A stretch of 64,000 nt of DNA, taken from assembly GCA_024635795.1 (NCBI GenBank), contig JAGXIH010000013.1:62001-126000 (forward strand), written 5' to 3'. This document shows, piece by piece, positions 326-40,167 of this stretch. The stretch is from Salegentibacter sp. Its GTDB lineage: Bacteria; Bacteroidota; Bacteroidia; Flavobacteriales; Flavobacteriaceae. The notes under the pieces are model-generated. The model made no database searches, had not been told where the DNA came from, and saw only the letters and a program-made list of their open reading frames with translations. Position numbers and translations under genes: made by a program. The number at the start of each line of letters is the position of its first letter. Position 1 is the first letter of the stretch.

Positions 326-2857
326 ATGGCTGAAGGAGAAAAGTTAATTCCTATCAACATTGAAGACGAAATGAAGTCGGCTTACATTGATTATTCAATG
401 TCGGTCATTGTGTCACGTGCTCTTCCCGATGTGCGTGATGGTTTAAAACCGGTACACCGCCGGGTTTTATTCGGGATGCACGAACTTGGTGTACTTTCTA
501 ACCGGTCCTATAAAAAATCTGCAAGGATCGTTGGGGAAGTTTTAGGTAAGTATCACCCTCACGGCGATTCCTCAGTTTATGATACAATGGTGAGGATGGC
601 TCAGCACTGGAGCATGCGCTATATGTTAGTAGATGGCCAGGGTAACTTTGGTTCAGTCGATGGCGATAGCCCTGCCGCAATGCGTTATACCGAAGCTCGT
701 ATGCGGAAGATAAGTGAAGATATGCTTATTGATATTGATAAAAATACGGTTGATACCCAACTGAATTTTGACGATTCTCTTTCAGAGCCAAAAGTTCTTC
801 CTACCCGAATTCCCAATCTTTTGGTAAATGGAGCCAGTGGAATTGCAGTAGGAATGGCGACTAATATGGCCCCTCATAATTTAGCAGAAGTTATTGACGG
901 TACTATAGCCTATATCAATAATCATGATATCGAGATCGATGAACTAATTGAGCATATTAAAGCCCCCGATTTCCCAACCGGAGGAACCATTTATGGTTAT
1001 GATGGAGTTCGGGAAGCTTTTAAGACAGGAAAGGGCCGTGTTGTTCTCCGGGCTAAATCTTCTTTGGAAGAAATTAACGGCAAAGAATTTCTTGTGGTTA
1101 CCGAAATTCCTTACCAGGTAAACAAGGCTGATATGATCAAGAAAACAGCCGACCTGGTAAATGAAAAGAAAATAGAAGGTATTTCGCTTATAAGGGATGA
1201 ATCAGACCGTAATGGGATGCGCATAGTTTATCAGTTAAAAAGAGATGCTATTCCAAATATTGTTTTAAATACCTTATATAAACATACTGCACTTCAATCT
1301 TCCTTTAGCGTAAATAATATTGCCCTGGTAAATGGCCGTCCTGAGTTACTTAACCTAAAGGAAATTATTCATCATTTCGTAGAGCACCGTCATGTGGTGG
1401 TGGTGAGAAGGACTGAATTTGAATTGAAAAAAGCTGAAGATCGTGCTCACATCCTTGAAGGTCTTATTATAGCTTCAGATAATATTGATGAAGTTATCGC
1501 ACTTATAAGATCTTCCGGTAATGCTGAAGAAGCAAGGGAAAAGTTAATGAGCAAGTTTGAATTAACGGAAGTTCAGGCAAGAGCTATCGTAGAAATGCGA
1601 TTAAGACAACTTACCGGACTGGAACAAGACAAACTTCGTGCAGAATATGATGAAATCCTTAAAACCATAGATGATCTTAAAGACATTTTGGCACGTAAAG
1701 AACGCCGAATGCAAGTAATTCAGGATGAACTCCTGGAGGTAAAAGAAAAATATGGCGACGAGCGTCGTTCTGTTATAGAATACTCCGGAGGAGATTTAAG
1801 TATAGAGGATATGATTCCGGATGAGCAAGTGGTAATTACCATTTCGCACGCCGGTTATATTAAAAGAACTTCCCTTAATGAATACAAGACCCAAAATAGG
1901 GGCGGAGTAGGTCAAAAAGGTTCTACCACCCGAAATGAGGATTTCCTGGAATATCTTTTTGCAGGAACTAATCATCAGTATATGCTTTTCTTTACTCAAA
2001 AAGGAAAATGTTTCTGGATGCGCGTTTACGAAATTCCGGAAGGTAGTAAGGCTTCAAAAGGTAGGGCAATTCAGAATTTAATCAATATAGATCCAGATGA
2101 TCGGGTTAAAGCCTTTATCAATACACAGGACCTCAAAGATGAGGAATATGTGAACAGCCATTATGTAATTATGGCGACCAAAAAAGGGCAGGTGAAAAAA
2201 ACTTCCCTGGAGCAATATTCCCGTCCAAGAACCAATGGAATTAATGCCATTACAATTAGAGAGGATGACGAATTACTGGAAGCTAAACTTACCAATGGAG
2301 AAAGTCAGGTTATGCTTGCAATAAAAAGCGGAAAAGCCATCAGGTTTGAAGAAAGTAAAACCCGTCCCATGGGTAGAAATGCTTCAGGGGTAAGAGGTAT
2401 CACCCTTGCCGATAAGGATGACGAAGTAATAGGAATGATTGCAGTAGAAGACTTTAATTCTGATATCCTGGTAGTTTCCGAAAATGGATATGGAAAACGC
2501 TCCAGCCTGGATGATTACAGAATCACAAATCGTGGAGGTAAAGGAGTAAAGACCATTTCTATTACCGAAAAGACCGGAAATTTAGTCGCGATTAAAAATG
2601 TCTCTGATGAGGATGATGTTATGATCATTAATAAATCTGGAATTGTAATAAGAATGGAAGTTGCAAATTTAAGAGTTATGGGACGTGCAACTCAGGGGGT
2701 TAGACTTATTAACTTAAAAGGTAATGATTCTATTGCAGCAGTAGCGAAAGTGCTTCATGATGAAGATGATGTAGAGCATATGGAAGACGCCATAACACCT
2801 GAACCTACTGAGCCAGATGCCCATGGCACAACTATTGATAAGGATAGTGAAGAATAA
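326..2857 (+). CDS. gyrA: DNA gyrase subunit A
   Basis: 843-aa ORF with [39 protein letters not shown] and [19 protein letters not shown] motifs plus C-terminal beta-pinwheel repeats. Confidence 0.98.
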
Positions 2858-4953: not shown

Positions 4954-6132
4954 TTAAGCGTTTCTTTCAATAACCATTGCAGAGGCACCACCGCCACCGT
5001 TACAAATAGCTGCTGCACCAATTTTAGCATTATTCTGCTCCAAAACATTTAGTAGCGTAATTAGAATTCTTACTCCACTACAGCCTAATGGATGTCCAAG
5101 CGACACAGCCCCACCATTAACATTGGTTTTGTCTGCACTTATATCTAATAATTTCATATTGGCAAGACCTACAACAGCAAAAGCTTCATTGAATTCAAAA
5201 TAATCTACATCATCTTTTGAAATTCCTGCCTTATCAAGTGCTAATGGTAAAGCCTTGGCCGGAGAGGTCGTAAACCATTTTGGTTCCTGTGCTGCATCAG
5301 CAAAAGATTTAATAGTAGCCAATACTTTTAATCCTAATTCCTCGGCTTTTTCACGACTCATTAAAATCATCGCTCCAGCTCCATCATTAATGGTAGAGGC
5401 ATTAGCAGCTGTTACAGTACCATCTTTACTAAAGGCAGGTCTAAGAGAGGATAATTTATCCATTCTTACATTCTTAAATTCCTCATCTTCTTTTACTATT
5501 ATAGGATCTCCTTTGCGTTGTGGTACTTCCACAGGAACAACTTCATTGTCAAATTTTCCTTCAGCCCAGGCCTTCGCAGAGCGCTCGTAAGACTGTCTTG
5601 CAAAATCATCCTGGTCTTCCCTGGAGAAATTATGTTCTTTAGCACAAAGGTCACCACAAACTCCCATCGCATTTTGGTCGTAGGCATCTACCAAGCCATC
5701 ACGTTGTAAACCGTCTACCATCGTGACAGCTCCAAATTTCTGGCCTTTACGCATAGGTACATAATGTGGAATTAAACTCATATTTTCCATTCCACCGGCA
5801 ACAATAATGGAACTATCTCCAAGCATAATGGATTGTGCTGCCTGCATAACAGCTTTCATTCCGCTGGCACATACTTTATTTACCGTGGTGCAGGGTACAG
5901 TGTCGGGAATTCCGGCCCCAAGTGCGGCCTGTCTGGCGGGAGCCTGGCCAACGTTAGCCTGGACAACATTTCCCATCAAAACCTCTTCAACCAATTCTGG
6001 CTTTAGCTTAATCTTATCCATTGCACCTTTAATAGCAATAGATCCTAATTTGGTGGCCGGAACCGTAGATAAGCCACCTAGAAAACTTCCTATAGGCGTA
6101 CGTGCGGCACTTACAATAACAACTTCTTTCAT
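4954..6132 (-). CDS. Acetyl-CoA C-acetyltransferase (thiolase)
   Basis: VCASGMKAV, NVNGGAVSLGHPLGCSG and CNGGGGASAMVIE thiolase motifs. Confidence 0.95.
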   Translation of the reverse strand: MKEVVIVSAARTPIGSFLGGLSTVPATKLGSIAIKGAMDKIKLKPELVEEVLMGNVVQANVGQAPARQAALGAGIPDTVPCTTVNKVCASGMKAVMQAAQSIMLGDSSIIVAGGMENMSLIPHYVPMRKGQKFGAVTMVDGLQRDGLVDAYDQNAMGVCGDLCAKEHNFSREDQDDFARQSYERSAKAWAEGKFDNEVVPVEVPQRKGDPIIVKEDEEFKNVRMDKLSSLRPAFSKDGTVTAANASTINDGAGAMILMSREKAEELGLKVLATIKSFADAAQEPKWFTTSPAKALPLALDKAGISKDDVDYFEFNEAFAVVGLANMKLLDISADKTNVNGGAVSLGHPLGCSGVRILITLLNVLEQNNAKIGAAAICNGGGGASAMVIERNA

Positions 6133-32124: not shown

Positions 32125-32162
32125 TTAAAGGTTTAAAGGACTTAGGCTCTTTAAACCTTTAA
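32125..32162. terminator. Long-stem hairpin/terminator between convergent genes
   Basis: TTAAAGGTTTAAAG / CTTTAAACCTTTAA, 14-bp perfect stem. Confidence 0.7.
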
Positions 32163-34474
32163 TTGTTTTTCTTTCCACCAAACAGTCTTTTAAAAAATCC
32201 TTTCTTCTCTTTCTTTTCCTCCTGTTTTTCGGTGTGTTTATTTCGTTCCTCGTTCTGATCATTTTTACCAAACAATCGTTTAAAGAAACCGTCACGTTTT
32301 TCAGGTTCGCAATCCAGCATCTCGATCACTTCAGCTGAAACCGGAAATTTTGCCCGGGTTATTTCCTTAAATTGAGGTTCGGCGTTCATTCTTTGCATCA
32401 GTTTTCCGAAGACCGGCAAGGCAGAATTCGCGCCCTGGCCTATATAGGTATTCCTGAACCCAATACGATGATCGTCACTTCCCACCCAGGTTACGGTAAC
32501 CAGGTTTGGGGTCATCCCCACAAACCATCCGTCTTTATTGTTTTGAGTAGTTCCGGTTTTCCCGGCAATGTCGTTTCTTAAACCATAGGTGCTTCTAAGC
32601 CTGGATGCCGTGCCTTCATTTACCGTAGCTTTCATCATTTCCACCATCACCTGCCTGTTCGTTTCAGAAAGGGCAGGGGTGTTGCCGTTTGTAGGTTTAA
32701 ATTCAACTAAGAGATTTCCGTTGCCATCTTCTATTTTGGTGATATAAAAGGGCTCACTATATATTCCATCATTAACAAAAGGGGTGAAGGCAGTAGTAAG
32801 TTCCGCCAAGCTCATTGAAGCCGTACCCAGAGCAATGGAAGGCACCGCCGGAATTTCAGAATCGATTCCCATTCTCCTGGCCTGATCGATGACATTGTCG
32901 ATGCCGGCCTCCATTAAAACCTTTACCGCGATGGTATTCATAGACTTGCTCAGAGCCTCCTTCATGTTATAGTTCATATAGGGATCGTCGTCATCACTGC
33001 CGGAATTAGATGGTGTCCATCCGCCTTCATAGGTGATTTCCCGGGCAGAGAAGTAGGTGCAGGGCTCGATCCCATTTTCCAGGGCTGCCGAATAAACTAT
33101 AGGCTTAAAAGTGGAACCTACCTGGCGTTTACTCTGTGATACGTGATCGTACTGAAAATAACGGTAGTCAATGCCACCAACCCAGGCCTGAACCGCTCCG
33201 GTACCGGGTTCTACCGCCAGCATCCCCGAATTCAAAAACTTAAGGTAGTGCTCAATACTGTCTTTTACACTGGCAGTTTTGGTGACAGTACCATTATATT
33301 CAAAAAGTTCCATTGGCCGGGTTCTATCCAGCTCAGCCATAATTTCTTCTGCAGATAAACCTTCATTTTCCAGATTTTTATAAGGTCTGGAGCTCTTTAT
33401 CGCGTCTTCCAGAATTTTAGGATTTCGTTTCCAGGGTGTCGCCTCGCCGTAGGACTTTTCGTGCTGTTCCTGTAAAGCAGCCATATGTTCCTGCATCGAT
33501 TCTTCGGCCAGCTCCTGCATTCTGTAGTTTAATGTGGTGTGCACAATGAGTCCGTCACGGTAAATATTATATTTCTTGCCATCTTTATTTTTTAGAGTAT
33601 CAAGGACCTTGCTTACATCCTTGCGAACCTGTTCTCTAAAATAGGGTGCCAGACCCTTATCGTGGCCGTAATTTTTATAATTCAAAACCAATTCTGCTTC
33701 CTGGGCTTCTTTTTCTTTTTCTTTTGAAATGAAATCATACTTTTCCATTTGTGAAAGCACAACGTTTCGCCTTTGTTTGCTGCGTTCAGGGAAGATGCGA
33801 GGATTATAATAATGTGAAGCCTTAAGCATTCCCACCAATACCGCAGATTCTTCTATATTTAATTCTGAAGTGTGTTTTCCGAAGAATTTCATTGAGGCGC
33901 TCTCAATTCCGAAAGTATTATCGCTAAACGGTACGGTATTGAAATAAAGCCTGATAATATTTTTTTTATCATAAGTTCCCTCCAGTCTATTGGCGATCAC
34001 AACCTCCTGAAATTTATTCACTACAATTCCCAGGAATCCATAATCCTTTCTTCCGTAGATATTTTTAGCGAGCTGAAGCGTGATGGTGCTGCCGCCTCCT
34101 GCAGATTCATCCTGAAGTAAAATAGATTTAAAAAACACCCGCATGAGGCTTCGGGAATCAATACCGCTATGATTATAGAAGCGAACGTCTTCAGTAGCGA
34201 TAAGAGCATCTATCAAATGCTGTGGAAATTCTTCATATTTTACCGGCTGCCGGTCGTGAATATAAAATTTTCCTATCAATTGGCCTTCCGAAGAAAGCAC
34301 CTGGGTGGCACGGCTTTGTTGTAGTTCGCTTAATTCTTTGGAAGATGGAAGTTTGCCCCAGGCACCAAAATAAATACTTGCAAAGAACAAGATCCCGAGC
34401 GCAACTAAACTTCCAATTATAATTAAACCCAATTTAAGTTTGGGTGAGTTTTTAATCTTTAATAACAATGACAT
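32159..34474 (-). CDS. Bifunctional penicillin-binding protein 1A (transglycosylase/transpeptidase)
   Basis: ALIATEDVRFYNHSGID, GGSTITLQLAKN, SKRQVGSTFKPIVY, AGKTGTTQNNKDGWFVG. Confidence 0.95.
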   Translation of the reverse strand: MSLLLKIKNSPKLKLGLIIIGSLVALGILFFASIYFGAWGKLPSSKELSELQQSRATQVLSSEGQLIGKFYIHDRQPVKYEEFPQHLIDALIATEDVRFYNHSGIDSRSLMRVFFKSILLQDESAGGGSTITLQLAKNIYGRKDYGFLGIVVNKFQEVVIANRLEGTYDKKNIIRLYFNTVPFSDNTFGIESASMKFFGKHTSELNIEESAVLVGMLKASHYYNPRIFPERSKQRRNVVLSQMEKYDFISKEKEKEAQEAELVLNYKNYGHDKGLAPYFREQVRKDVSKVLDTLKNKDGKKYNIYRDGLIVHTTLNYRMQELAEESMQEHMAALQEQHEKSYGEATPWKRNPKILEDAIKSSRPYKNLENEGLSAEEIMAELDRTRPMELFEYNGTVTKTASVKDSIEHYLKFLNSGMLAVEPGTGAVQAWVGGIDYRYFQYDHVSQSKRQVGSTFKPIVYSAALENGIEPCTYFSAREITYEGGWTPSNSGSDDDDPYMNYNMKEALSKSMNTIAVKVLMEAGIDNVIDQARRMGIDSEIPAVPSIALGTASMSLAELTTAFTPFVNDGIYSEPFYITKIEDGNGNLLVEFKPTNGNTPALSETNRQVMVEMMKATVNEGTASRLRSTYGLRNDIAGKTGTTQNNKDGWFVGMTPNLVTVTWVGSDDHRIGFRNTYIGQGANSALPVFGKLMQRMNAEPQFKEITRAKFPVSAEVIEMLDCEPEKRDGFFKRLFGKNDQNEERNKHTEKQEEKKEKKGFFKRLFGGKKNN

Positions 34475-34566
34475 AGGTTAAATTAACGGCTACAAATTAA
34501 CGAAGACTTGAAAAGAGTAGTTCACTATTTATGCCAACTTTAAGTTTTACCCGCGGATATAAAAAA

Positions 34567-34594
34567 AGCCGGCCACAAATTGAATTGTGCCGGC
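34567..34594 (-). terminator. Terminator downstream of the small-ORF array
   Basis: AGCCGGCCACAA / TTGTGCCGGCT hairpin; T tract on minus strand. Confidence 0.75.
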
Positions 34595-34626
34595 TACTTT
34601 TGGGCAAAGTTCATAAGACTTGGTGT

Positions 34627-34770
34627 TTATGGTTCTATTACTAAATTCTTGTGATGTTTCCAGGCTGATGCAAAATGGTTGTTTTTAATTACGCGGAAAT
34701 GCTTCCTGCGTTTTAAGAACCCTGCCTTGCGTTGTCCAATTTCCATCATCATATTCTCCAGGGTTTTCAT
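34627..34770 (-). CDS. Small basic ORF of 47 aa, last of the array, unknown function
   Basis: MKTLENMMMEIGQRKAGFLKRRKHFRVIKNNHFASAWKHHKNLVIEP; same strand and same type of spacer as the paralogous ORFs upstream. Confidence 0.5.
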   Translation of the reverse strand: MKTLENMMMEIGQRKAGFLKRRKHFRVIKNNHFASAWKHHKNLVIEP

Positions 34771-34797: not shown

Positions 34798-34893
34798 TTA
34801 ACTTAAATAGCGTCTTTGGCTATCCCAGCTGCTTCGGCTGTTTTGTTTCTTTGTGTTTAAAAATGCTCTGCGGTTAATCTTTGAAGGTTTCAT
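34798..34893 (-). CDS. Micropeptide copy 1, 31 aa
   Basis: MKPSKINRRAFLNTKKQNSRSSWDSQRRYLS; paralogous to copies 2 and 3, no frame-disrupting indel. Confidence 0.65.
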   Translation of the reverse strand: MKPSKINRRAFLNTKKQNSRSSWDSQRRYLS

Positions 34894-34919
34894 AATAATT
34901 ACTTTTAAAGGTTGAACTA

Positions 34920-35015
34920 TTAACTTAAATAACGTCTTTGTTTATCCCAGCTGCTTCGGCTGTTTTGCTTCGTCGTGTTTAAAAATTCTCTGCGGTTGAT
35001 CTTTGAAGATTTCAT
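34920..35015 (-). CDS. Micropeptide copy 2, 31 aa
   Basis: MKSSKINRREFLNTTKQNSRSSWDKQRRYLS. Confidence 0.65.
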   Translation of the reverse strand: MKSSKINRREFLNTTKQNSRSSWDKQRRYLS

Positions 35016-35040
35016 AATACTTGTTTTTAAGGTTGATAAA

Positions 35041-35136
35041 TTAACGTAAATAACGTCTTTGACTATCCCAGCTGCTTCGGCTGTTTGTTTTCTCTGTGTT
35101 TAAAAATGCTCTTCTTGTGGTTTTGAAAGTTTTCAT
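35041..35136 (-). CDS. Micropeptide copy 3, 31 aa
   Basis: MKTFKTTRRAFLNTEKTNSRSSWDSQRRYLR. Confidence 0.65.
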   Translation of the reverse strand: MKTFKTTRRAFLNTEKTNSRSSWDSQRRYLR

Positions 35137-35339
35137 CGTTTAAAAGTTTTATTGTTTACCTAATAGACTTAGATAGAATAGGTTTGTTACAGTACTATGC
35201 ATAAAACAGTAGTAAATTAACATATTATTAACTATTAGACTGGTTTTCAATAGTAAAAGAGTGGGGGTAAGGACAGATTTAAATAAAAAATGCGAACCCA
35301 TCGGTTCACATTTTTCTATAAGTAACAAGGAAGTGTGAT

Positions 35340-36812: not shown

Positions 36813-38264
36813 ATGGAAAAATTTATTGTGGTTAACCAGCCTGAAACCTGGAACTTAGCACTTGAGAAGGTTCAGATAATTTCAGCACATTCTTATCTTA
36901 CGAATCCGGAATATGCGAAAATTAAAAAGGCACGGATTTTTAACCTATGTAAGGATTATTCTTACCAATCCCGCGGATATTATGTTTCACTTTTAGCCGA
37001 AGCCAGGGGCCATCTGGCGATTCCCACAGTTACAAATCTGGTAGATCTTCGTGAGCCAAAACTCGTAAAAATCGTTTCTGAAGAATTTGATGATCTCATC
37101 CAAAAAAGCCTGAAAAATATTAAATCTCAGGAATTTACCCTTAGTATTTATTTTGGTCAAAACGTTGCTCAAAAATACCGCGAACTTAGCGCTATGTTCC
37201 ACCGGCATTTTCAGATACCCTTTCTAAGGGTGAAATTTAACTTTACTACCAAATGGAATATTAAAAATATAAAAGCAATTTCAGAGGCCGAAATCCCTGA
37301 AGAACATAAAGAAAGTATGCGGGTATTTGCCGCCCAGTATTTTGCCAAAAAACGTTATGATACTCCTCGCCTGGTCAATGCAGATTATGACCTGGCGATT
37401 CTGGTTAATCCAGAAGATCCTGCGCCACCAAGTAACCCCAAGGCCATTAAAAAATTCATTGAAATTGGGGAAAAAATGGGGTTTAATGTTGAAGTAGTAT
37501 CCCCTAAAGATCTTTCCCGTTTATCTACTTTCGATGCATTATTTATTAGGCAGAGCACCGAGGTTAACAACGAGGCCTATGCCTTTGCCCGAAAGGCCCA
37601 ACAGGAAGAAATAGCCATTATAGATTATCCCGAGGCGATTTTAAAATGCTGTAACAAGGTATTTATGGCCGAGGCCCTTCAAAACGCCGGGATTCCTACG
37701 CCTAAAACGGTGATTGTTCATAGAGATAATAAAAATTCGGTTCTTGAAACCACAGGGCTCCCTGTAGTTTTAAAATCTCCCGATTCCACCTTTTCCTTTG
37801 GTGTAAAAAAAGCAACCACCGAAGATGAATATCAGGAAATGGTAAATACTATGCTGAAAAAATCTGATCTGGTAATTGCCCAGGAGTTTTTACCCTCAGA
37901 ATATGATTGGCGCATAGGTATTCTGGATGACAAACCATTTTATGCCTGCAGGTATTATATGGCAAAAGACCATTGGCAGATCTATAACTGGAACGCCGCC
38001 GAAAAGGACAATCAGGACGGAAATGCCGATAGTTTGCCTATAGAGGAAATACCTAAAAAAGTATTGGATGCCGCCCTGAAATCGGCTAAAATAATGGGGA
38101 AAGGCCTGTATGGAATTGATGTAAAAGAGATAAATGGTAGGGCCCTGGTTATAGAAATTAACGACAATCCTAATATAGATGCCGGAGTAGAGGATGGGTA
38201 TTATGGCGATCAGGTTTATACTGATATTCTCGGCGCTTTAAAAAGCAGACTTGAAAAAAAATAA
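36813..38264 (+). CDS. RimK-family ATP-grasp ligase with RLAN-like N-terminal domain
   Basis: C-terminal ATP-grasp: NAGIPTPKTVIVH, PVVLKSPDSTFSFGVKKA, FLPSEYDWRIGILDDKPFYACRYYM, GIDVKEINGRALVIEINDNPNIDAG; separate ~180-aa N-terminal domain. Confidence 0.9.
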   Translation: MEKFIVVNQPETWNLALEKVQIISAHSYLTNPEYAKIKKARIFNLCKDYSYQSRGYYVSLLAEARGHLAIPTVTNLVDLREPKLVKIVSEEFDDLIQKSLKNIKSQEFTLSIYFGQNVAQKYRELSAMFHRHFQIPFLRVKFNFTTKWNIKNIKAISEAEIPEEHKESMRVFAAQYFAKKRYDTPRLVNADYDLAILVNPEDPAPPSNPKAIKKFIEIGEKMGFNVEVVSPKDLSRLSTFDALFIRQSTEVNNEAYAFARKAQQEEIAIIDYPEAILKCCNKVFMAEALQNAGIPTPKTVIVHRDNKNSVLETTGLPVVLKSPDSTFSFGVKKATTEDEYQEMVNTMLKKSDLVIAQEFLPSEYDWRIGILDDKPFYACRYYMAKDHWQIYNWNAAEKDNQDGNADSLPIEEIPKKVLDAALKSAKIMGKGLYGIDVKEINGRALVIEINDNPNIDAGVEDGYYGDQVYTDILGALKSRLEKK

Positions 38265-38266
38265 TA

Positions 38267-39487
38267 ATGAACTATCATCTCTTTGAAGTTTTTGGCATTG
38301 AGCTGGAATATATGCTGGTACGAAAGGAAGGTTTGAAAGTAAATCCGATTGTAGACCAGCTTCTCACTAAGAAAAACGGAAGTTTAACCCCTGATATTGA
38401 TAATGGTAAAATTGAATGGAGCAATGAGCTGGTAGCGCATGTGCTCGAACTTAAAACCAATGGACCAACAGGAAACCTGGAAGATCTTGATACGCTTTTT
38501 TCTGAAAATATTCAGGAGATCAATTCCCTGTTGGAGGAATTTGATACTTTGCTTTTGCCTTCGGCCTCTCATCCCTTAATGCAACCAAAAACTGAAACTC
38601 AGCTCTGGAAGCATAGTTACAGTAAGATCTACGCCTTATATAACCGCATTTTTGATTGCAGCGGCCATGGATGGAGCAATGTGCAGAGTATGCATATTAA
38701 CTTACCATTTTATAATGATGCTGAATTTGGAAAATTACACGCAGCCGTGAGGATCCTGCTACCAATAATTCCCGGGTTAAGCGCGAGCTCCCCAATTTTT
38801 GAAGGAAAAGCAACAGGATTTAAGGATTCCCGCCTGGAGGTCTATAAAACCAATCAAAAAGAGATTCCGACAATGACGGGGAAGGTTATCCCCGAACAGG
38901 TTTTTACCAAAGCAGACTACTACCAAAGAATTTTCAAACCCATTAATACCGCTATAAAGCCCTTTGATACTGAAAATATCCTGGATCATCATTTTCTCAA
39001 TTCCCGAGGAGCAATAGCACGATTTGACAGAAACGCTATTGAAATACGCGTCATAGATATTCAGGAGTGCCCGGCCGCAGATATCGCAATCGCCGTTTTA
39101 ATAATTGAAAGCTTGAAATTATTATTAAGTGGGGAATTGATTGCCCTGGATGAACTCAAGAAATGGCATGAAGATGACCTCTTCGGAATCTTTAATTCGG
39201 TAATTCAAAATGCTGAAAACACCCAAATTAGTAACGAAGCCTATTTAAAGATTTTCGGAATAGAAGAGGAAGTAAACGTCAGGCAAATCTGGGAGAAATT
39301 ATACGAAAGGGTACAATCCCAAATTTCCTTAAAACATCAGAATACCATTGAATATATTCTAGAGAATGGCAGCCTGTCTACCAGAATACTCAAGAAAATC
39401 GATGGGGATTTTTCAAAAGAAAAAATAAGAAAGGTCTATTCTCAACTCGGGGAATGCCTGGCTAACAATCAATTATTAAAAGTGTGA
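38267..39487 (+). CDS. GCS2-like glutamate-cysteine ligase family (carboxylate-amine ligase)
   Basis: FEVFGIELEYMLV, MHINLPFYNDAEF, RGAIARFDRNAIEIRVIDIQECPAADIAI. Confidence 0.85.
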   Translation: MNYHLFEVFGIELEYMLVRKEGLKVNPIVDQLLTKKNGSLTPDIDNGKIEWSNELVAHVLELKTNGPTGNLEDLDTLFSENIQEINSLLEEFDTLLLPSASHPLMQPKTETQLWKHSYSKIYALYNRIFDCSGHGWSNVQSMHINLPFYNDAEFGKLHAAVRILLPIIPGLSASSPIFEGKATGFKDSRLEVYKTNQKEIPTMTGKVIPEQVFTKADYYQRIFKPINTAIKPFDTENILDHHFLNSRGAIARFDRNAIEIRVIDIQECPAADIAIAVLIIESLKLLLSGELIALDELKKWHEDDLFGIFNSVIQNAENTQISNEAYLKIFGIEEEVNVRQIWEKLYERVQSQISLKHQNTIEYILENGSLSTRILKKIDGDFSKEKIRKVYSQLGECLANNQLLKV

Positions 39488-40167
39488 GGTTAATCTTAAC
39501 CTGCGAACATGCATTCAATAAAATTCCTGAGGAATACAGAGACCTATTTCCGAAAACCAGGGGTATTCTTGGGAGTCACCGTGGCTACGATCCTGGTGCC
39601 CGGGATCTATTTGAACATCTTATAGCTTTAGGGGACTTTAATTATACTTATAAAATTAGCAGATTGCTGGTTGAAGTCAACCGCTCCATTGATCACCCTC
39701 ATTTATTTTCTGAATTCACTAAAGGAATTTCTTCAACAGAAAAAAATAAAATAATCACCAGATGGTATATTCCATATAGGAATGAAGTAGAAGATCAAAT
39801 TAGAAAATTAATTGGCAGCGGGGAGAAGGTGGTCCATTTATCTGTTCATAGTTTTACTCCCGTTCTAAAGGGGGAGATACGGAATGCAGATATTGGTCTT
39901 CTTTATGATCCATCTCGCAAGGAGGAGAAAGTAATTTGTAAAGATTTAAAATCAAAGTTAAGAGAAGAAGATTCCACTTTAAAAATAAGGTTTAATTATC
40001 CCTACCTGGGAAAGGCTGATGGATTTACAACCTATTTGAGAAAGAAATTTCCGGAGAATTATTCGGGGATAGAGCTGGAGGTAAATCAGAAATTCGTAAA
40101 AAATAATAAGATGGATATAAAACTAAAAGAGGCCATTTTTAAAGCCCTTCAAAAAACTTTAAAATAA
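39484..40167 (+). CDS. N-formylglutamate amidohydrolase-like protein
   Basis: LILTCEHAFNKIPEEYRDLF, SHRGYDPGARDLFEHL, VNRSIDHPHLFSEF, HLSVHSFTP; GTG start overlaps upstream stop by 4 nt. Confidence 0.88.
   Translation: MRLILTCEHAFNKIPEEYRDLFPKTRGILGSHRGYDPGARDLFEHLIALGDFNYTYKISRLLVEVNRSIDHPHLFSEFTKGISSTEKNKIITRWYIPYRNEVEDQIRKLIGSGEKVVHLSVHSFTPVLKGEIRNADIGLLYDPSRKEEKVICKDLKSKLREEDSTLKIRFNYPYLGKADGFTTYLRKKFPENYSGIELEVNQKFVKNNKMDIKLKEAIFKALQKTLK

Follow-up and report, generated by a model that had tools for sequence, protein, structure and literature searches.

A conserved tandem array of genes for basic microproteins, preceded by a putative ECF-type promoter, in Salegentibacter and related genera

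Introduction

Promoters recognized by ECF sigma factors follow a consensus with a TGTAAC-like -35 element and a (C)GTCT-like -10 element at a fixed spacing, while leader-peptide attenuators, i.e., TnaC and the trp leader, constitute the system with which very short ORFs of the type described below may be compared. Among small basic proteins, CcaF1 of Rhodobacter sphaeroides, a small DUF1127 protein encoded behind an RpoHI/RpoHII promoter, has been demonstrated to bind RNA, and its operon, which terminates in a Rho-independent terminator, includes four homologous tandem units, the CcsR1-4 RNAs (PMC10253847). Agrobacterium possesses three small DUF1127 proteins, which bind the sensor kinase PhoR (PMC12501420). 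The locus analyzed here, a tandem array of micro-ORFs, is located on a 64,000-nucleotide stretch of Salegentibacter DNA (hereafter, the window) and is compared below with each of these systems. Literature searches for the array locus and for its promoter motif returned no reports.

The array and its encoded peptides

The three tandem 31-aa ORFs described in the initial annotation were reproduced exactly, both in position and in sequence, as ORF 1 (35041-35136; MKTFKTTRRAFLNTEKTNSRSSWDSQRRYLR), ORF 2 (34920-35015; MKSSKINRREFLNTTKQNSRSSWDKQRRYLS) and ORF 3 (34798-34893; MKPSKINRRAFLNTKKQNSRSSWDSQRRYLS), all on the minus strand. These ORFs are separated by homologous spacers of 25-26 nt, with a unit spacing of 121-122 bp, and across their intervals the annotated frame alone is open, stops being present in the remaining five. 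A fourth family member, the divergent long-form paralog ORF 4 (34627-34770, minus strand; 47 aa, MKTLENMMMEIGQRKAGFLKRRKHFRVIKNNHFASAWKHHKNLVIEP), had been overlooked, as had the promoter and the 6-codon ORF fused to the terminator. ORF 4 can be aligned with the 44-aa forms of the family, and the homologous position is occupied in S. flavus and S. sediminis; its own sequence was part of the search profile, so that its score against this profile is not independent. In the source genome, represented by a 62%-complete assembly, the 31-aa peptide was found at the array only. The three ORFs are part of what sequence comparison predicts to be a larger conserved operon, consisting of one promoter, one to six basic micro-ORFs of 28-47 codons each (four in the window), a mini-ORF and a terminator.

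The encoded peptides, of 28-47 aa, are hydrophilic and lack export signals, with a pI of 10.7-11.8 and a net charge of approximately +6 to +8. Their conserved core reads R-x-F-[LFM]-N ... R-x-x-W ... R-R-Y/F, with one Trp and a terminal RRY or RRF, and AlphaFold returned low-confidence helices only (pLDDT 64 and 61). No significant match to the family was obtained in Pfam, NCBIfam, PHROGs or the PDB, in agreement with the initial statement that the peptides match no known family, and the phage and plasmid collections were equally devoid of matches. The family is small, arginine-rich and positively charged, as DUF1127 proteins are; Pfam scans of ten family members at E-values up to 1 gave no match to DUF1127. 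This small-protein family, with short and long types in four genera, has not previously been described and is absent from the databases searched.

Distribution and synteny

In Salegentibacter, a marine bacterium, the peptides are present in 13 of the 15 genomes, directly 5' of the same gene, which encodes a class A penicillin-binding protein with Transgly and Transpeptidase domains (PBP1A; 32159-34474 in the window, minus strand, assigned by Pfam and synteny), and the layout is one to five short copies followed by an ORF of 44 to 47 aa. When PBP1A was used as an anchor to find related loci, the same layout was recovered in Christiangramia/Gramella (five ORFs each), in Gillisia (four and two ORFs) and in genus g132 (one and four ORFs). 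Arrays hold one to six members and copy number differs between species; near-identical copy sets occur in C. gaetbulicola (four 33-aa ORFs) and in genome G304 (four 29-aa ORFs), the other sets having diverged. The survey of PBP1A-upstream regions revealed arrays in the Salegentibacter-Gramella-Gillisia-g132 group only, with none 5' of PBP1A in approximately 60 other, more distant Flavobacteriaceae genomes. Profile searches of 400 Flavobacteriaceae and 398 Flavobacteriales genomes returned strong matches in g1, g65 and g132 only; weaker matches elsewhere were rejected, being short and mostly located within other ORFs or broken by stops. In S. echinorum the whole cassette is absent, promoter and terminator included, and since the array was not found in two of the 15 Salegentibacter genomes, it is not essential to the clade. 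The array, its synteny with PBP1A and the basicity of its peptides are shown by comparison between genomes.

Several further loci were observed. In Gramella, two solitary long-form members, each followed by a second small ORF of the MKAHINIKQQPRGMYNGLNLRRLAETVIIR type, occupy non-PBP1A loci (L099:2345-2602 and L101:2145-2424). In genome G009 an insertion of roughly 100 bp interrupts the second copy within the array (L042, approximately 5625-5810), with remnants of the family motif left; here, single copies decay while others stay intact. Finally, another Flavobacteriaceae genome (G138; L189, approximately 1611-2050, plus strand) carries, 5' of PBP1A, unrelated tandem repeats of 115 bp, each of which contains a near-identical, putatively coding 30-aa ORF (MKPRLQIQSQVLRTIDFYFLNS...).

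Coding constraint and RNA folding

Omega values were calculated by the Nei-Gojobori method, and are to be read as guides rather than tests, as related sequences do not count as independent and certain synonymous distances approach saturation. This dN/dS analysis, which the initial annotation had proposed as a check, yielded 0.07-0.09 in the best sets, i.e., 0.09 across 14 type-A copies, approximately 0.07 across eight 45-aa ORFs, at the place of ORF 4 in other Salegentibacter, and 0.08 among the four G304 copies, while the four copies of G014 differ by 10 synonymous and 0 nonsynonymous changes. Higher values were obtained among the three copies of the window (0.38) and the four of S. flavus (0.53), so that certain copies are under relaxed constraint or diversifying. 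Where similar copies differ in length, they do so by whole codons; in C. oceanisediminis, for example, one codon has been lost in frame.

Compared with synonymous shuffles, the copies showed no excess of RNA structure (mean z of -0.02 over 85 copies), the RNA of the window array folded more weakly than its dinucleotide shuffles (z = +1.4), and the array had no match in Rfam. The proposal that the repeats are sRNA-like units is consequently not supported. Purifying selection and the lack of excess folding together argue for a translated protein family rather than a structured RNA, and the coding status of the peptides, which are clearly selected as proteins, is well supported by these comparisons. 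The concept of tandem paralogous genes for strongly basic micropeptides, derived by duplication of a whole unit, is supported, and now covers four genera in which purifying selection acts at the level of codons.

The putative promoter and its upstream box

The first ORF of the window array is preceded by a putative promoter of the ECF-sigma type, TGTAAC-N17-GTCTA (35164-35191, minus strand). ECF-type -35 and -10 elements, with a spacing of exactly 17, are located 5' of the first gene at every aligned array locus, and every intact array carries TGTAAC, exactly 17 bases and GTCTATTA at this position. The strict pattern was found once per genome in 12 of the 15 Salegentibacter genomes, and the reversed control gave 0 matches. 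Looser matches are located 5' of DUF4870 and response-regulator genes. Within the same clade, TGYAAC-N17-CGTC-like sites also lie 5' of several ECF sigma genes; in G014 and G081, sites of this kind resemble the array promoter without being identical to it. As a predicted element the array promoter is well supported by comparison, and we infer from its sequence that it belongs to the ECF-sigma type. No TGTAAC-N17-GTCT promoter was seen at the solitary long-form loci of Gramella (L099 and L101).

Directly 5' of the promoter, an upstream box, GTTAA...GTTAA...CTACTGTTTTATGCATAGTAC (35192-35233, minus strand; also written GTTAA...GTTAA...GTAC...CATAGTAC), could be aligned at the same place in four genera. 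One occurrence of its motif is found in the window, where 0.01 would be expected, and the box includes an inverted repeat (AGTACT..ATAGTACT in most Salegentibacter), which borders the -35 element. The box, apparently better conserved than the peptides, may serve as a binding site for an activator or extend the contact with the sigma factor. In S. tibetensis (G013), promoter and array are located at the ends of different contigs (L107, G013:C24, and L037, G013:C166), which indicates an insertion or an assembly break between them, likely either an insertion between the promoter and the first codons or a break caused by repeats.

The terminator and its mini-ORF

The terminator that had been noted 3' of the array is genuine: an intrinsic terminator is located at 34561-34596 (minus strand), where a U run comes after a fold of -19.6 kcal/mol (z = -3.3). 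A 6-codon mini-ORF (ATGAACTTTGCCCAAAAGTAG, MNFAQK; 34594-34614, minus strand) ends with its UAG at the base of the terminator stem. A mini-ORF of 6 or 7 codons ending at the terminator is present in all 23 array loci (19 aligned, the last four inspected by eye), and in 22 of these its UAG is positioned at the base of the 5' arm of the terminator; G148 carries a UAA immediately 5' of that UAG. The ATG does not vary across the 19 aligned loci and has an A-rich box some 11-14 bases upstream, while the codons between ATG and stop are not conserved. Terminator-like sites with such an ORF numbered six among 65 scanned in the same sequences, a scan that missed the interrupted Salegentibacter stems; four of the six belong to arrays and two represent one unrelated site in two loci. 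The selected feature of the mini-ORF seems to be the position of translation rather than the peptide; this might tune how efficiently the terminator works, shield the end of the RNA or allow ribosomes to be released.

Neighbouring genes

After the terminator comes a promoter-like motif belonging to PBP1A itself (GTATTYGTTTATTTG and close variants), irrespective of whether the array is present, a similar motif being retained in S. echinorum. PBP1A, while a constant neighbour of the array, probably forms a transcription unit of its own, and the constant synteny may reflect simple inheritance, since PBP1A occurs without the array in most genera and the motif is independent of its presence. On the other side of the array, genes for a RimK-like ATP-grasp protein, GCS2 and an N-formylglutamate amidohydrolase (FGase) lie in a row in the window (36813-40167, plus strand), representing an amidoligase-type cluster. 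Of the array loci, only those of the window, S. flavus and S. sediminis were seen to have this cluster nearby, and the other Salegentibacter have a different gene upstream of the array.

Proposed function and alternatives

The explanation that we tentatively prefer, ahead of one based on a protein partner, is that of an ECF-driven array of microproteins that bind RNA or the ribosome under stress, a binding role of this kind being among those suggested in the initial annotation. An envelope or stress cue would act through an ECF sigma factor to switch on the array as a single transcription unit starting at the ECF-sigma-type promoter, and each ORF would be translated from its own A-rich leader. 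The unit would provide, at an amplified dose, a set of paralogous basic microproteins of the cytosol and would end at the intrinsic terminator with its tiny ORF. The R/K-rich peptides with their conserved Trp would associate with a polyanionic partner, RNA or the ribosome being the most likely one, and adjust RNA stability or translation in a manner functionally like that of the RpoH-driven small basic CcaF1 (DUF1127). Tandem duplication and loss of units would tune the dose, leaving copies free to diverge into short and long types. In this scheme the sigma type, the stress induction and the RNA or ribosome target are steps that we infer.

The RNA target is rendered less certain by the fact that small basic proteins may also act through protein-protein contact, as DUF1127 proteins of similar size and charge do when they bind PhoR in Agrobacterium (PMC12501420). 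The same ECF-driven peptides might accordingly contact a sensor kinase, a sigma/anti-sigma pair, RNA polymerase or an envelope enzyme such as PBP1A rather than RNA, a somewhat unlikely alternative that is consistent with the constant array-PBP1A linkage in four genera and with the related promoter sites 5' of DUF4870 and response-regulator genes, which suggest an envelope regulon. However, many genera that do not have the array conserve PBP1A, the catalytic part of this enzyme would lie on the periplasmic side whereas the peptides lack an export signal, and the solitary members in Gramella are located away from PBP1A.

The ORFs, above all the mini-ORF, might instead form a translation-sensing attenuator, in which a ribosome on the mini-ORF would mask the terminator 5' arm and allow transcription into PBP1A, with the peptides stalling the ribosome. 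A short ORF does overlap the terminator in all 23 loci, with its stop at the stem base and unconserved residues, the scarcity of such ORFs at other terminator-like sites points in the same direction, and peptides of 28-33 aa approximate the length of the exit tunnel. This explanation is nevertheless improbable in view of the separate promoter-like motif of PBP1A, present even in S. echinorum, of the constraint on N-termini and whole peptides rather than on a C-terminal arrest region only, and of the variable copy number, which would be odd for an attenuator. A combined mechanism, whereby the microproteins would act together on ribosomes or RNA under stress and the mini-ORF would make the terminator translation-sensing, reporting translation status to the cell-wall synthase gene, appears quite improbable.

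A very unlikely explanation is that the ORFs encode precursors of modified or exported peptides, either RiPP-like or signalling, whose copies would represent product variants. Paralogous short ORFs with invariant and variable positions would suit such a role, as would the RimK/GCS2/FGase cluster 1.7-5 kb away in the window, but neither a leader cleavage site nor a signal peptide was seen, conservation extends across the whole peptide, and no maturation or transport gene is consistently linked; the earlier suggestion of substrates of a modifying enzyme is weakened likewise, as the array has no enzyme gene as a consistent neighbour. A structured or antisense RNA array in which the ORFs are incidental, which the tandem repeats, conserved spacers, promoter and terminator would recall by their resemblance to an sRNA cluster, is scarcely tenable and largely refuted by the codon-level constraint, i.e., the low omega values and whole-codon length differences; the lack of excess folding and of an Rfam match also speaks against it.

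Beyond the preferred role in RNA or ribosome binding, the array is of wider relevance in that it represents a small-protein family likely missed by gene annotation owing to size. Its copy-number-variable tandem layout, with one to six members and species without the array, provides a natural series for probing small basic stress proteins, and, with the mini-ORF conserved at the base of its terminator, it offers a concrete example from Bacteroidota of termination that may be under translational control.

Comparison with known systems

The DUF1127 proteins, i.e., CcaF1, the Agrobacterium set and YjiS, resemble the array peptides in being small, arginine-rich, positively charged and often present in several copies; they differ in that the array peptides have no Pfam DUF1127 match and in that DUF1127 is known mainly from Alpha- and Gammaproteobacteria. 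The CcaF1 operon shares with the array an alternative-sigma promoter, a terminator and tandem homologous units, yet its repeated units are non-coding RNAs whereas those of the array are protein genes, and its sigma class is RpoH whereas that of the array is ECF-like. With TnaC and the trp leader, the array has in common a short ORF whose stop is located at a terminator hairpin and a conserved Trp in a short peptide. In contrast to these leaders, however, the array contains several independently constrained ORFs in variable number, its terminator lies between two units with apparently separate promoters, and the residues of its mini-ORF are unconserved. The ECF-sigma regulons of Bacteroidota are matched by the TGTAAC-N17-(C/A)GTCT promoter and by the related sites 5' of ECF sigma genes of the same clade, from which the array is set apart by its additional conserved upstream box.
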